Shown: positions 37,744-64,000 of the stretch, piece after piece
Position numbering within the stretch: the first letter of the stretch is position 1
Layout: each line of letters begins with the position of its first letter
Assembly: GCA_020161405.1 (NCBI GenBank)
Contig: JAIUOD010000003.1
Span: 343,392 to 407,391 of the forward strand
Source of the DNA: Pseudomonadota bacterium
Lineage (GTDB): Bacteria > Pseudomonadota > Alphaproteobacteria > Caulobacterales > Aquidulcibacteraceae
Reading direction: 5' to 3'
Length of the DNA stretch: 64,000 nucleotides
Program-made: the position numbers and the translations under genes
The notes under the pieces: model-generated
Told to the model about the DNA's origin: nothing
Database searches by the model: none
The model's input: only the letters and a program-made list of their open reading frames with translations

Positions 37744-37773
37744 GAACATAGATAGAACGTTCTTGATTAGTTC
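37744..37773. promoter_or_regulatory. two back-to-back SOS (LexA) boxes
   Basis: GAAC-N7-GAAC at 37744-37758 is followed with no gap by GTTC-N7-GTTC at 37759-37773. Each is a perfect alphaproteobacterial LexA direct repeat and they face opposite ways, forming a 30-bp inverted arrangement 70 bp before lexA and 92 bp before gltX copy 1. Confidence 0.9.
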
Positions 37774-37842: not shown

Positions 37843-38505
37843 TTGCTTACTTCAAAACAACACGAATTACTTTTATTCATCAACGAGCGTTTACAAAAAG
37901 ACGGCGTATCGCCTTCATTTGATGAGATGAAAGATGCCCTTAACCTTGCTTCTAAATCGGGTATTCACCGCCTTATCTCAGCATTAGAAGAACGTGGCTT
38001 TTTGCGTCGCCTTGCACATCGTGCGCGCGCACTTGAAGTCATCAAACTTCCGCAATTGGAAAATACTTCTTCGACCAAACCACGCAATGTTGTTGAATTT
38101 GAAAAGCCAACGCATTCCAGTGTTGCAAATCAAAATATTCCAATCCTTGGCAAAATCGCGGCAGGTGTTCCAATCGCTGCAATTCAAAACGAAATTGGAA
38201 GTGTGAATGCGCCCGATACACTAGCACCTGAAATGCATTATGCCCTTGAGGTACGTGGTGATTCTATGATTGAAGCAGGTATCTTAGAGGGTGATATTGT
38301 AATTCTGCGCAGAACCGAAAGCGCCGAAACTGGTGATATAGTTGTTGCCCTTATTGATGACGAAGAAGCAACATTAAAACGTATTCGCAAACGTGGAAAA
38401 TCAATCGCTTTAGAAGCTGCAAATCCAAGATACGAAACACGTATTTTTGGCCCTGATCAAGTTAAGGTTCAAGGTGTTCTTGTGTCGCTTTATCGACGTT
38501 ATTAA
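37843..38505 (+). CDS. lexA: LexA repressor
   Basis: 220 residues. N-terminal winged helix (residues 1-70), self-cleavage site Ala107-Gly108 ([10 protein letters not shown]), catalytic Ser141 ([10 protein letters not shown]) and Lys179 (EATLKRI). RecA-stimulated autocleavage relieves SOS repression. The start is TTG 37843 with AAGGGAG 8 nt upstream, and it fits the conserved beginning [13 protein letters not shown]. Autoregulation is supported by the two LexA boxes upstream. Convergent with comEC, with 6 bp between the stops. Confidence 0.96.
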
Positions 38506-58648: not shown

Positions 58649-61600
58649 CTAATATTCAACTATATTGGCAATGCCACCAATTGATTTTAATGCACGCCGC
58701 GCACCAATATCTAGCGGATATCGCCCAGGAAGCAAGACTTCAATTTCACGCGCGTCACTTGATTCAAAAACTAATCTAATCTCGCCAAAATTTGTTGATT
58801 CCATTCCTGAAATTGCTTCTGTAACTTTCTTGATGTCGTCAAAATTTGCATCATTTTCAAGATATAGTTTAGCGCCTTCATACCTTGTATTGGCAATGTT
58901 TTCGACATTATCAAATCTTGATGCGCTTAGTTTTAAATCGCCATCAAGCATTTTGGCATTTGCAACACATGAAACCGCGCGCCCGACAACAACAAATTGG
59001 CGTGCCTGCTCCAAATCTTCGGGACGAACAAAAACTTCATATTCACCCGTTGGGTCAGATAATGTCACCCATGCAAACTTACCGCCACGTTTTGCCGGTC
59101 GCTCTTTAGCGGCACGAACAACGCCCGCCATTCTGAAAACCGCCTCATTAGTTTGCATATATTCTTCAATTTGACCGTAGAAAATGGTTTTGCGTGCGAT
59201 TAATTCTTGCGAAATATCATCAAGTGGATGCCCAGAAAGGAAAAGACCCATTGCGGCAAATTCATTAGATAATCTATCTTGTTCCCCCCAATTGGAAACA
59301 TTTGATAGGGGTGCGCGTGGCGGTGTTGCGCTTTCACCAAAAAGACTAAATTGGTTTTGATCAGCCTCGTTATTTGTTGCTGACGCATGTGACATTAATT
59401 GGTCGGCATTGGCGCAAACCTTTGCCCTATTTGGTTCAATAATGTCAAATGCACCAGCTTTAGCAAGATTTTCAACAGCACGTTTGTTTAAATTACGTGG
59501 GCCAACACGTTCGAAAACTTCGTAAATATTGGTGAAAGAACCACCTTCTTCACGTATTTCAACAAGTTTTTCCATGGCTTTAACGCCAACGTTTTTAACT
59601 GCGCCCAATGCATAAAGTATTTCGCCATTTTCAATCGCAAAATTTGCCTGTGAACGGTTAATATCAGGGCGATTTACAACTATTCCAAGGCGCTTTGCTT
59701 CCTGAACATAAGCACCCAATTTATTTGTATCCTCGATATCGAGTGTCATGGCGGCAACCAAGAACTCAACGGGATAGTGCGCTTTTAAATATGCGGTTTG
59801 ATAGGAAATTACCGCATAAGCCGCCGCGTGTGATTTATTGAAACCATAGCCTGCAAATTTTTGAACCAAATCGAAAATTGTACCCGCAAGGCTTTTGTCG
59901 ATACCTTTTTTGTCAGCACCTTCTGCAAATCTTAGGCGCTGTTGATCCATTTCTTCTTTTAGCTTTTTACCCATTGCACGGCGAAGCATGTCAGCTTCAC
60001 CTAATGAATAACCGGAAAGGATTTGGGCGATTTGCATAACTTGTTCTTGGTAAATTATTACGCCATGGGTTTCTTTTAGAACAGGCAAAAGACTTGGATG
60101 CAAATAATCGGCATTTTGTCGTCCGGCTTTAACATCGCAATAGGTTGGAATATTTTCCATTGGCCCCGGTCTATAAAGCGAAATCAAAGCGATAATATCT
60201 TCAAGGCATGTCGGAACCATTCTGCGAAGAGTATCACGCATACCCTGCCCCTCCAGCTGGAACACGCCAAGCGTTTGGCCTGTTGCAAGGAAGTCAAAAA
60301 CCATTTTATCATCATATCGTTGGGTTGAAAAATCAACTTCGATGCCGCGATTGCGTAATAATTCTATTGCTTTTTGGATAACAGTTAGGGTTTTCAGTCC
60401 CAAGAAGTCAAATTTAACTAGGCCCGCAGATTCCGACCATTTCATATTATATTGGGTAGCGGGAATATCTGATTTTGGGTCTTTATAAAGTGGTACTAAT
60501 TCTTTTAATGGACGCCCCGCAATTACCACGCCCGCAGCATGGGTTGAACAATTACGATAAAGCCCCTCAAGCTCCAATGCAGTATCCAAAAGACCACGAT
60601 GAAGTTCATTTGTATCATATTTTTCTTTTAATTTTGGTTCTATTTCTAGCGCTTTGGCAAGTGTCACGGGATTTGCGGGATTATTTGGAATAAGTTTGGT
60701 AATTTCAGATACTTCATTAAATGACATATCCAAAACCCGCCCCACATCGCGAACCGCCGCGCGTGCTTGTAAAGTTCCGAAAGTGATAATTTGCGAAACT
60801 CGCTCGAAACCGTATTTTTCTTGAACGTAAGATATAACTTCGTCACGCCTTGTTTGGCAAAAGTCGATATCAAAATCGGGCATTGAAATACGTTCTGGAT
60901 TAAGGAAACGCTCAAAAAGAAGGCCAAATTCAAGTGGATCAAGGTCAGTAATTTTAAGCACATAGGCAACCAAAGAACCTGCGCCAGAACCACGACCAGG
61001 GCCAACCGGAATATCATGTGCTTTGGCCCATTTGATAAAGTCCGATACTATCAAGAAATAGCCCGAAAAACCCATTCGATTAATAATATCTAATTCAAAT
61101 TCAAGGCGTGAATTATATTCTTCGACACTTGTAACGGGGGGGCGTTTGCTTAAACGTTCTTGCAGGCCTTCGCGTGCCTGAACTGCCAATTCTTCACTTT
61201 CGCTAAGTCCTTGACCTGATGGAAAACTAGGAAGGATTGGTTTGCGCTTTTTAGCACGTATTGCGCAGCGTTTTGCAATTTCAACAGTATTTTCAATGCA
61301 TTCTGGTAAATCAGCAAAAAGCGCAATCATTTCCTCATCTGTCTTGAAATAATGCTCTTCGGTAAGGCGTTTACGATTATTGTCGGAAAGACGTGAGCCT
61401 TCATTTATACAAGTCAAAACTTCATGCGGATAATGTTTTTCGCGTTTATCATAACGAACATCATTTGTGCCAACAATTGGAATATCTAATTCATAGGCTT
61501 TTTCGAGAAGCGAATTTTCGGTTTGTAATTCATCTTCGCGGCCGTGTCGCCCAATTTCAATATAAAATCTATCTTTGAAAATATTAGATAATTTATGGGT

Positions 61601-62068
61601 TAGAAAATCAAAACCCAAAATATCATTTGCAATAATTGCATTATTTAAAATGCCTTCAAATCCGCCACTTAGGCAAATTAGACCATCTGATAATTCGGCA
61701 ATCAGTTCAATATCAATGCCGTCATCAATATTCTCAATCTCAAGAAATGTAGCAGATGATAAAGCGCAAATATTAGCAAAACCAATTTCATTTTGTGCAT
61801 AAAGCGCGATGCGACCTTTTAATTCATGCGCTTCTGGTTCTTCAATTTTTGCTTTAATAACAACATTAAGGCCAATTATAGGCTGAACACCAGATGCAGC
61901 CAAACTTTCGGAAAATTCAAGCGCGCCAAATAAATTATTATCACAAATCGCAAGCGCAGGTAATGAACGCGATTTGGCAATATTATTAATCTTCTTAACT
62001 GTCATCGCCCCATCAAGCAATGAATAAGCAGATTTCACTTTTAAATGAACAAATTGCGGCGTCGCCAT
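58649..62068 (-). CDS. dnaE: DNA polymerase III alpha subunit
   Basis: 1139 residues from ATG 62068 (GGGGT upstream; the frame is open to 62197 but that part is not conserved). PHP domain at residues 1-280 (FVHLKVKSAYSLLDGAM), polymerase palm with MPDFDIDFC near residue 395, helix-hairpin-helix region and a C-terminal OB domain (FRMAGVVRAAKERPAKRGGKFAW). Main replicative polymerase. The length and PHP start are those of DnaE1, not of the error-prone DnaE2/ImuC, so the nearby SOS box probably serves the small upstream gene, not dnaE. Confidence 0.97.
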   Translation of the reverse strand: MATPQFVHLKVKSAYSLLDGAMTVKKINNIAKSRSLPALAICDNNLFGALEFSESLAASGVQPIIGLNVVIKAKIEEPEAHELKGRIALYAQNEIGFANICALSSATFLEIENIDDGIDIELIAELSDGLICLSGGFEGILNNAIIANDILGFDFLTHKLSNIFKDRFYIEIGRHGREDELQTENSLLEKAYELDIPIVGTNDVRYDKREKHYPHEVLTCINEGSRLSDNNRKRLTEEHYFKTDEEMIALFADLPECIENTVEIAKRCAIRAKKRKPILPSFPSGQGLSESEELAVQAREGLQERLSKRPPVTSVEEYNSRLEFELDIINRMGFSGYFLIVSDFIKWAKAHDIPVGPGRGSGAGSLVAYVLKITDLDPLEFGLLFERFLNPERISMPDFDIDFCQTRRDEVISYVQEKYGFERVSQIITFGTLQARAAVRDVGRVLDMSFNEVSEITKLIPNNPANPVTLAKALEIEPKLKEKYDTNELHRGLLDTALELEGLYRNCSTHAAGVVIAGRPLKELVPLYKDPKSDIPATQYNMKWSESAGLVKFDFLGLKTLTVIQKAIELLRNRGIEVDFSTQRYDDKMVFDFLATGQTLGVFQLEGQGMRDTLRRMVPTCLEDIIALISLYRPGPMENIPTYCDVKAGRQNADYLHPSLLPVLKETHGVIIYQEQVMQIAQILSGYSLGEADMLRRAMGKKLKEEMDQQRLRFAEGADKKGIDKSLAGTIFDLVQKFAGYGFNKSHAAAYAVISYQTAYLKAHYPVEFLVAAMTLDIEDTNKLGAYVQEAKRLGIVVNRPDINRSQANFAIENGEILYALGAVKNVGVKAMEKLVEIREEGGSFTNIYEVFERVGPRNLNKRAVENLAKAGAFDIIEPNRAKVCANADQLMSHASATNNEADQNQFSLFGESATPPRAPLSNVSNWGEQDRLSNEFAAMGLFLSGHPLDDISQELIARKTIFYGQIEEYMQTNEAVFRMAGVVRAAKERPAKRGGKFAWVTLSDPTGEYEVFVRPEDLEQARQFVVVGRAVSCVANAKMLDGDLKLSASRFDNVENIANTRYEGAKLYLENDANFDDIKKVTEAISGMESTNFGEIRLVFESSDAREIEVLLPGRYPLDIGARRALKSIGGIANIVEY

Positions 62069-62256
62069 AATTACCCCATAGAGCGTTTCCCAAAAAATGT
62101 TAAGCGGTTTTTGGATAGAAACGCGACAAAAGAAGGAATCTAGAGTTGAATTTCGATTCAGTCGAAATGGAACACTAGAATAAAAAGGTTGTGCCAAAAT
62201 TCGAATAATATGTCAGTATGAATTAACAATCATACCCAACAAAAAACACCTTACCA

Positions 62257-62355
62257 CTAGCCGAATAAAGCACCAAAAGCCGACGCAACCATAGAAAAAC
62301 CAACGATAGCGGCGAAACCAAGAATATCTTCCCAGCGCAATAATTGTAAATTCAT
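62257..62355 (-). CDS. 32-residue single-span membrane peptide, SOS-regulated, SidA-like candidate
   Basis: Begins MNLQLLRWEDILGF and ends GALFG; 32 codons plus TAG. A short polar start with a Trp/Glu/Asp patch is followed by one hydrophobic span (residues 12-32, rich in Ala, Gly, Val, Phe). AGGGG stands 7 nt before the ATG. A perfect LexA box lies 19 bp upstream over the expected transcription start. Caulobacter SidA is a 29-residue LexA-controlled inner-membrane peptide that stops division through FtsW/FtsN; size, topology and control agree, but homology by sequence is not tested here. The gene lies between lolD and dnaE. A longer frame in another register (62213-62416) covers this region but has no ribosome site and an unlikely composition. 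Confidence 0.7.
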   Translation of the reverse strand: MNLQLLRWEDILGFAAIVGFSMVASAFGALFG

Positions 62356-62366
62356 AACAAACCCCT

Positions 62367-62395
62367 GAAATAAGTTCTTTGTTTGTTCTTATTTC
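62367..62395. promoter_or_regulatory. dyad enclosing the SOS box of the small peptide gene
   Basis: GAAATAAG (62367-62374) and CTTATTTC (62388-62395) are perfect 8-bp arms around 13 bases; the arms share their inner base with the two GTTC half-sites of the LexA box. Could be a second operator or a hairpin at the mRNA 5' end. Confidence 0.5.
62374..62388 (-). promoter_or_regulatory. SOS (LexA) box upstream of the 32-residue peptide gene
   Basis: GTTC-TTTGTTT-GTTC on the plus strand (GAAC-N7-GAAC on the minus strand), a perfect alphaproteobacterial LexA site with the same form as the two boxes before lexA in this window. It lies directly downstream of the predicted -10, where LexA would block initiation. 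Confidence 0.85.
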
Positions 62396-62417
62396 ATGTT
62401 TTGTTCTCATTGGCAAG
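62389..62417 (-). promoter_or_regulatory. promoter of the 32-residue peptide gene
   Basis: Minus strand -35 CTTGCC (62417-62412), 17-bp spacer, -10 AAATAA (62394-62389). Start of transcription expected near 62382, inside the LexA box. Confidence 0.5.
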
Positions 62418-62434: not shown

Positions 62435-63112
62435 TTATATTTTATGCAAATACCCATTTTCAAGGCGCACAATTGCATCCATTTTATCTGCTAATTCAAG
62501 ATTATGAGTGCCAACTAATGCGGCAACATTTTCCTCTTTTGCAAGTTTTGTAAAGATTTCGAACACTTGAATAGATGTTGTCGGATCAAGATTTCCCGTT
62601 GGCTCATCTGCAAGCAATAAGATTGGCTCATTGGCGAGCGCGCGCCCTATCGCAACCCTTTGCTGTTCCCCTCCCGATAATTGCGCAGGTTTATGCTTCA
62701 TGCGCTCTTTTAATCCAAGTAATTCAAGAAGATATTCAGCACGCTCAAGCGCATGAACAAAAGATTTGCCATTTATCAATTGTGGTAAAGCAATATTTTC
62801 GCGTGCATCAAATTCAGGCAGTAAATTATGAAATTGATATACAAAGCCGATTTTCTCACGCCTAATTAAAGTGCGTGAATTATCGTCTTTGGTAACAATT
62901 TGACCGTCAATTTTTATTTCACCATCTTGTGGCTCTTCTAATAGTCCAGCAGAATGCAAAAGTGATGATTTTCCAGAGCCTGATGGGCCGATAAGGCCGA
63001 TAATTTCACCACGTTTTATGTTTAAATCAACGCCTTTCAAAACCTCTAATTCGCCCGCAAGGGTTTTATAAGTTCTTTTTAGGCCTTTAATTGATAAAGC
63101 TAAATCACTCAT
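62435..63112 (-). CDS. lolD: lipoprotein-releasing ABC transporter ATP-binding protein LolD
   Basis: 225 residues from ATG 63112. Walker A GLIGPSGSGKSSLLH, signature LSGGEQQRVAIGRALA, Walker B LLLADEPTGNLD, and the H-loop GTHNLELA. The ATPase that drives release of outer-membrane lipoproteins from the inner membrane to LolA. Overlaps the stop of the upstream lolC/E gene by 8 bp. Confidence 0.94.
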   Translation of the reverse strand: MSDLALSIKGLKRTYKTLAGELEVLKGVDLNIKRGEIIGLIGPSGSGKSSLLHSAGLLEEPQDGEIKIDGQIVTKDDNSRTLIRREKIGFVYQFHNLLPEFDARENIALPQLINGKSFVHALERAEYLLELLGLKERMKHKPAQLSGGEQQRVAIGRALANEPILLLADEPTGNLDPTTSIQVFEIFTKLAKEENVAALVGTHNLELADKMDAIVRLENGYLHKI

Positions 63113-64000
63113 AACGTAGTGCCTCAACTGGGTCGAGATTGGCGGCGCGCCAAGCCGGCGGAATTGTTACCAAGACACTCATGATGAGTGCAAAAACTGC
63201 GGTATAGATAACTTCTGACCATTCAACATGCGCGGGAATTTGCGATAGAAAATAAACTTCTGATGGAAAAACAGGACCGAAAACAGTCTCAACACCTTTT
63301 TGAATAAGGCCGATATTTACGCAAAATAATGTTCCGAATAAAACACCGCAAATCGTACCCAAGACACCAATACTTGCGCCAATCATAATGAAAATACGCA
63401 TTATTGATAAACGCGTTGCACCCATTGTTCTAAGAACGGCAATATCGCGCCCCTTATTTTTAACAAGCATAACAAGGCCAGAAATGATATTAAGCGCGGC
63501 AATCAAAACCAAAAGCATAAGGATAAGGCGCATTACAACACGCTCTGTACCCAATGCTGAAACAAGGCTTGCCGATTGATTACGCCAATCACTTAATAAT
63601 GAGCCATCAACATAATTTGCCAATTGCCCCATGATTTTACTACTTTCATCGGGATTTTTGACACGCAATTCAATCATGTCAATTCGCATGTCACGACTAA
63701 AAAATAATTGTGCTTGCTCTAATGGCATATAAATAAGGCTCTTGTCATATTCACTCATGCCAATATTGAAAACTGCGCCAATTTTATAGTCTTTTGAACG
63801 TGGCGTTGAACCAAAGGCGGTTTGCGCCCCATCTGGTGCAAGCAATGTTATATAATCACCCGCCATAACACCTAATTGACGCGCAAGACCAGTTCCGACA
63901 ATTATTTCATCGCCACCATATTCACCCTTGCCATATTCGTTCAAAGAACCATCAACAATATGTTCAGATATTGTCTTTAATTCCATTATATCATCGCGGC
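63105..64000 (-). CDS. lolC: lipoprotein-releasing ABC transporter permease LolC/LolE, N-terminus outside window
   Basis: 298 codons visible; the frame is open to the window edge (RDDIMELKT... at 63995-63969), so ATG 63986 is internal and roughly the first quarter of the protein is missing. Periplasmic MacB-like domain (GGDEIIVGTGLARQLGVMAGDY), then three spans: VMRLILMLLVLIAALNIISGLVMLV, a second with IFIMIGASIGVLGTICGVLFG, a third near the end, and the characteristic terminal PAWRAANLDPVEALRYE. Works with LolD. Many alphaproteobacteria have one permease that merges the LolC and LolE roles, so the symbol is approximate. Confidence 0.9.
   Translation of the reverse strand, partial: RDDIMELKTISEHIVDGSLNEYGKGEYGGDEIIVGTGLARQLGVMAGDYITLLAPDGAQTAFGSTPRSKDYKIGAVFNIGMSEYDKSLIYMPLEQAQLFFSRDMRIDMIELRVKNPDESSKIMGQLANYVDGSLLSDWRNQSASLVSALGTERVVMRLILMLLVLIAALNIISGLVMLVKNKGRDIAVLRTMGATRLSIMRIFIMIGASIGVLGTICGVLFGTLFCVNIGLIQKGVETVFGPVFPSEVYFLSQIPAHVEWSEVIYTAVFALIMSVLVTIPPAWRAANLDPVEALRYE

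Follow-up and report, generated by a model that had tools for sequence, protein, structure and literature searches.

To our knowledge, SOS-induced arrest of cell division in Alphaproteobacteria without SulA is mainly known from Caulobacter. Caulobacter SidA, which has a length of 29 residues, acts on FtsW/FtsN, and changes in ftsW or ftsI suppress SidA (PMC4211646). The gene is CCNA_02004 (PMC10769358), its start codon was corrected (PMC4117421), and dnaE is CC1926 (PMC1839093). In the present study, the SidA sequence was fixed through the curated model NF033228 (div_inhib_SidA) and the locus tags, and the adjacency of sidA and dnaE was taken from the DNA rather than from these papers. In C. 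vibrioides DSM 9893, dnaE is preceded by LexA boxes and by a frame; read from its second ATG, this frame encodes exactly 29 residues, and the resulting peptide scores 72.4 bits against NF033228 (cut-off 35). In the Caulobacter loci L162-L173 (e.g., L163:2343-2466), an in-frame upstream ATG located inside the operator would give a SidA of 40 residues, and the earlier misannotation of the sidA start may have arisen from this ATG. Among 14 named control genomes, NF033228 matched C. vibrioides only. The model is narrow because many genuine Caulobacteraceae sidA genes score 18-33 bits and, thus, fall below its cut-off. In the literature, which was covered in part, we found no mention of sidA outside Caulobacter.

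DidA of Caulobacter is a small, single-span, damage-induced division inhibitor that acts on FtsW/I/N (PMC4211646). The gene described below is likened to it in these respects, its own role being predicted; however, DidA has 71 residues, is SOS-independent, is controlled by DriD, and lies at another locus. YneA of Bacillus acts on FtsW (PMC13396833). YneA and SosA of Staphylococcus are similar to the putative product of the present gene in being SOS-induced single-span division inhibitors, but are larger and have no known sequence or locus relation to it. SulA of Escherichia coli (PF03846) resembles it in its predicted role as a LexA-controlled division inhibitor. However, SulA is a soluble inhibitor of FtsZ, and the present peptide did not match PF03846 or any other Pfam or NCBIfam model. 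A search with PF03846 did not detect SulA in the genome under study; therefore, the lack of a classical SulA, which the first-pass annotation had assumed for alphaproteobacteria, holds for this genome.

Results

The window (the whole stretch of 64,000 nucleotides analyzed here) carries a lolC-like gene, a lolD-like gene, a 32-codon frame, and dnaE in this order on its minus strand (Table 1). The first-pass annotation had described a short minus-strand frame with a good ribosome-binding site, a single hydrophobic span, and a perfect LexA box, and each of these features was confirmed in the sequence. The spacing between AGGGG and the ATG is 6 nt. The peptide of 32 residues has a best 17-residue mean hydropathy of 2.14, and its single hydrophobic span is predicted to be a membrane span.

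Table 1. Positions of the candidate gene, its regulatory sites, and related genes in the window
Feature	Position	Strand	Basis or remark
Adjoining pair of GAACN7GAAC boxes, one on each strand	37744..37773	.	Divergent gap between gltX-like gene and lexA
lexA, putative repressor of the 32-codon frame	37843..38505	+	TIGR00498, 166 bits
dnaE (DNA polymerase III alpha)	58649..62068	-	NCBIfam/Pfam; 188 nt downstream of the 32-codon frame
sidA ortholog candidate, 32-residue frame with one hydrophobic span	62257..62355	-	Reads MNLQLLRWEDILGFAAIVGFSMVASAFGALFG*
Ribosome-binding site AGGGG	62362..62366	-	Sequence; kept in G003
LexA box 2, GAACAAACAAAGAAC, perfect	62374..62388	-	Only the spacer differs in G003
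LexA box 1, GAACAAAACATGAAA, one mismatch	62392..62406	-	18 bp from box 2; overlooked in the first-pass annotation
Probable -35, TTGCCA	62411..62416	-	Kept in the sidA promoters of several relatives
lolD-type ABC transporter ATPase, upstream neighbor	62435..63127	-	ABC_tran; LolD assignment from the neighborhood, with a lolC-like gene before it

G003, a genome of the same genus, encodes exactly the same 32 residues. The two frames differ at 10 bases, all of which are silent third positions, and nine codons and the stop codon are changed. Changes across close strains were overwhelmingly synonymous: the numbers of silent and replacement codons were 14/0 between G018 and G022, 8/0 in a pair from family f125, and 7/0 in a pair from f14. 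Both the LexA box and the frame are kept in relatives. Judging from this substitution pattern, the 32-codon frame is coding. A longer overlapping frame in another register (62213-62416) was rejected. Since all of the differences from G003 are silent third positions of the 32-codon frame, the longer frame is spurious, as initially supposed. The only terminator-like stem detected lies inside the 32-codon frame and is probably spurious as a terminator. An Rfam search near the frame gave RF02599, a Brucella sRNA model, as the sole match (25 bits against a gathering score of 398, E 2.3e-4). The stretch that resembles part of this model, 62081-62125 of the window, lies in the dnaE leader on the opposite strand and may be a shared intergenic element instead of an RNA.

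The operator consists of two boxes in tandem, with the layout TTGCCA, GAACAAAACATGAAA, TAA, and GAACAAACAAAGAAC. Both boxes are kept in G003, in which changes are confined to the spacers. The perfect box had been placed between a plausible -10 and the ATG. The box itself was verified, whereas a -10 of good consensus was not: the candidate AATAAG is weak, and a consensus scan of the window promoter for a sigma-70 site returned none. In shuffled sequences, GAACN7GAAC occurred approximately once per 64-kb window (both strands); because of this rate, the probability of a box on the right strand less than 100 bp from a given start is near 0.001. The window contains four such sites, two of which are in front of lexA.

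The whole genome (2.98 Mb) has 43 GAACN7GAAC sites, many of them by chance. An SOS box set is present before the expected repair genes: near-start boxes precede lexA, recA, ruvC, uvrD, and genes for UvrA-like, IMS-family polymerase, and alkyltransferase-like proteins. The other SOS boxes examined in this genome have no genuine 18-bp tandem partner. Two DUF559 genes (PF04480, Vsr/restriction-endonuclease-like) each have a box that begins 19 bp before their start (GAACAAATAATGAAC and GAACATATATAGAAC; G000:C2:23854-23868 [L206] and G000:C5:236893-236907 [L230]), and the position of these boxes suggests that the putative nucleases belong to the SOS regulon. At G000:C5:286089-286114 (L235), two overlapping GAACN7GAAC sites, 11 bp apart, are located 66-77 bp before a gene for a ComM/ChlI-type ATPase.

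A tandem operator pattern (GAACnnAAnnnGAA-N1-6-GAACN7GAAC) was run on 200 genomes of the order together with a reversed control. The pattern was found in 52 genomes, with one site in each, and the reversed control gave one match in all 200. We inspected 50 of these sites, and a short hydrophobic frame begins 4-96 bp after every one of them. At 49, dnaE follows 140-480 bp downstream of the operator; no dnaE was detected at the remaining site. The sites span the family of the window (f1), f3, f4, and f5. Named loci suggest that f3, to which G038 belongs, is Caulobacteraceae, and 98 of its 119 genomes match the family peptide. The strongest support for the view that the window gene is sidA by descent, which we hold to be very probable, comes from this operator test.

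NF033228 did not match the window peptide or any peptide in the listed f1 genomes, and we do not claim the window gene as a member of this model as curated. A direct search with the 32-residue peptide revealed one strong relative outside this genome, namely, that in G003, and weak matches were sorted by locus. Against a profile of Caulobacteraceae SidA alone, the window peptide was marginal (2.7-3.4 bits, with 93-131 of 2000 shuffles scoring as well), and another f1 member, G007, reached 10.5 bits (1-2 of 2000 shuffles). Against a profile of f3, f4, and f5, evaluated with a decoy set without true SidA sequences, the window peptide scored 7.5 bits (best decoy, 6.2; 11-29 of 2000 shuffles as good) and G009 15.4 bits; G009 and G007 were above all 2000 shuffles. 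A profile-profile comparison of f1 with SidA gave E = 2.5e-4 at a probability of only 43%. Of 29 aligned peptides, 26 have an acidic residue where the span begins. By these scores, the likeness of the window peptide itself to SidA is weak, and it is clear through intermediates.

Discussion

The window gene and SidA (NF033228, CCNA_02004) have in common the slot directly upstream of dnaE, a tandem LexA operator over the promoter, a length of 28-32 residues, a single hydrophobic span, and an acidic residue before this span. However, SidA has an FVW motif and an ARE(S/T) N terminus, both of which are absent from the window peptide. The N terminus of the window family is acidic and lacks the basic, arginine-containing context of SidA, and the gap to dnaE is 188 nt in the window versus approximately 35 in C. 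vibrioides. We consider the window gene to be very probably a positional ortholog of sidA that has diverged beyond the curated model, rather than an analogue, because the dnaE slot, the tandem LexA operator, and the sequence linkage via intermediate families all point to it. The first-pass annotation had proposed an analogue of SidA; the present results support this proposal and go beyond it.

The best explanation, which we regard as likely, is that this sidA ortholog is a LexA-repressed, damage-induced gene, the product of which arrests the late divisome. By orthology with SidA, LexA dimers on the two tandem boxes 18 bp apart would cover the promoter and keep the gene off. Following DNA damage, active RecA would lead to the cleavage of LexA, and the single-span peptide would be synthesized and inserted into the inner membrane. 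It may then hold the late divisome (FtsW/FtsI/FtsN) inactive, and cells would elongate instead of dividing over damaged DNA until LexA returns. The genome encodes two FtsW-family proteins, neither of which reaches the curated ftsW cut-off, with one falling just short of it.

The peptide may instead have retained the sidA locus and acquired another target, acting as an SOS-induced small membrane peptide in depolarization or dormancy similar to TisB or DinQ of E. coli. A role of this type would also be consistent with its size, its one span, and its control by LexA, and the peptide has drifted strongly from SidA, to the extent that NF033228 does not match. However, the locus and tandem operator are those of sidA, the constraint on the peptide is strong, and no known toxin RNA regulator is present nearby, with the single Rfam match being far below its gathering score. 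We consider such a change of target to be improbable. It is very unlikely that the frame is a leader that tunes the expression of dnaE, with the peptide itself being unimportant. The frame is on the same strand as dnaE and upstream of it, and is even nearer in Caulobacter. However, its amino acids are kept while its codons change, the corresponding frame of C. vibrioides is the SidA protein, and the spacing between the operator and dnaE varies over the range given above. A sidA ortholog that arrests division remains our preferred explanation.

In f1, the gene was recovered in 16 of 60 genomes, and only in genera g1, g4, g6, and g7; most other genera, including the large g12, had no match. The gap between lolD and dnaE is short in several of the inspected f1 genomes without a sidA match. 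To cover the class as well as the order, 110 dnaE upstream regions were sampled by DnaE similarity and kinship, and not by the presence of a box. A box within 500 bp was found on the same strand in 32 of the 110 regions, on the opposite strand in 2, and in 0.9 after shuffling. A short hydrophobic ATG frame followed 28 of the 32 boxes (1.9 expected) and was present in 2 of the 78 boxless regions. With only 32 codons in AT-rich DNA, the frame might be taken for one that arose by chance next to an equally fortuitous LexA box; these conservation data and the silent substitutions relative to G003 refute this explanation.

Outside the order are 18 of the 32 boxed regions, in nine families. The peptide profile of the order matched f8, f14, f23, f62, f125, and f130 at 11-19.5 bits (best decoy, 8.1), and these peptides exceeded nearly all shuffles. 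SidA-like boxed peptides outside the order were noted in the dnaE upstream regions L013-L022, L029, L064, and L070. Families f9, f46, and f127 share the locus type and box only, and were not counted as homologs because sequence homology was not detectable.

SidA does not appear to be confined to Caulobacteraceae. We lean toward the view that much of Alphaproteobacteria has an old SOS division checkpoint in the form of a single-span peptide under LexA control encoded at the dnaE locus, and that this checkpoint escaped notice due to the tiny size and fast evolution of the peptide. sidA may be co-transcribed with dnaE, in which case division arrest and the supply of polymerase would rise together. 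This kind of checkpoint is already known; its probable reach beyond Caulobacteraceae is what the present study adds. A concrete candidate gene is now available in the organism of the window, and locus and operator point to candidates in many other families as well; therefore, the question is directly testable in several lineages. Moreover, these very divergent natural variants may serve as material for elucidating how such a tiny peptide holds FtsW/I/N inactive.
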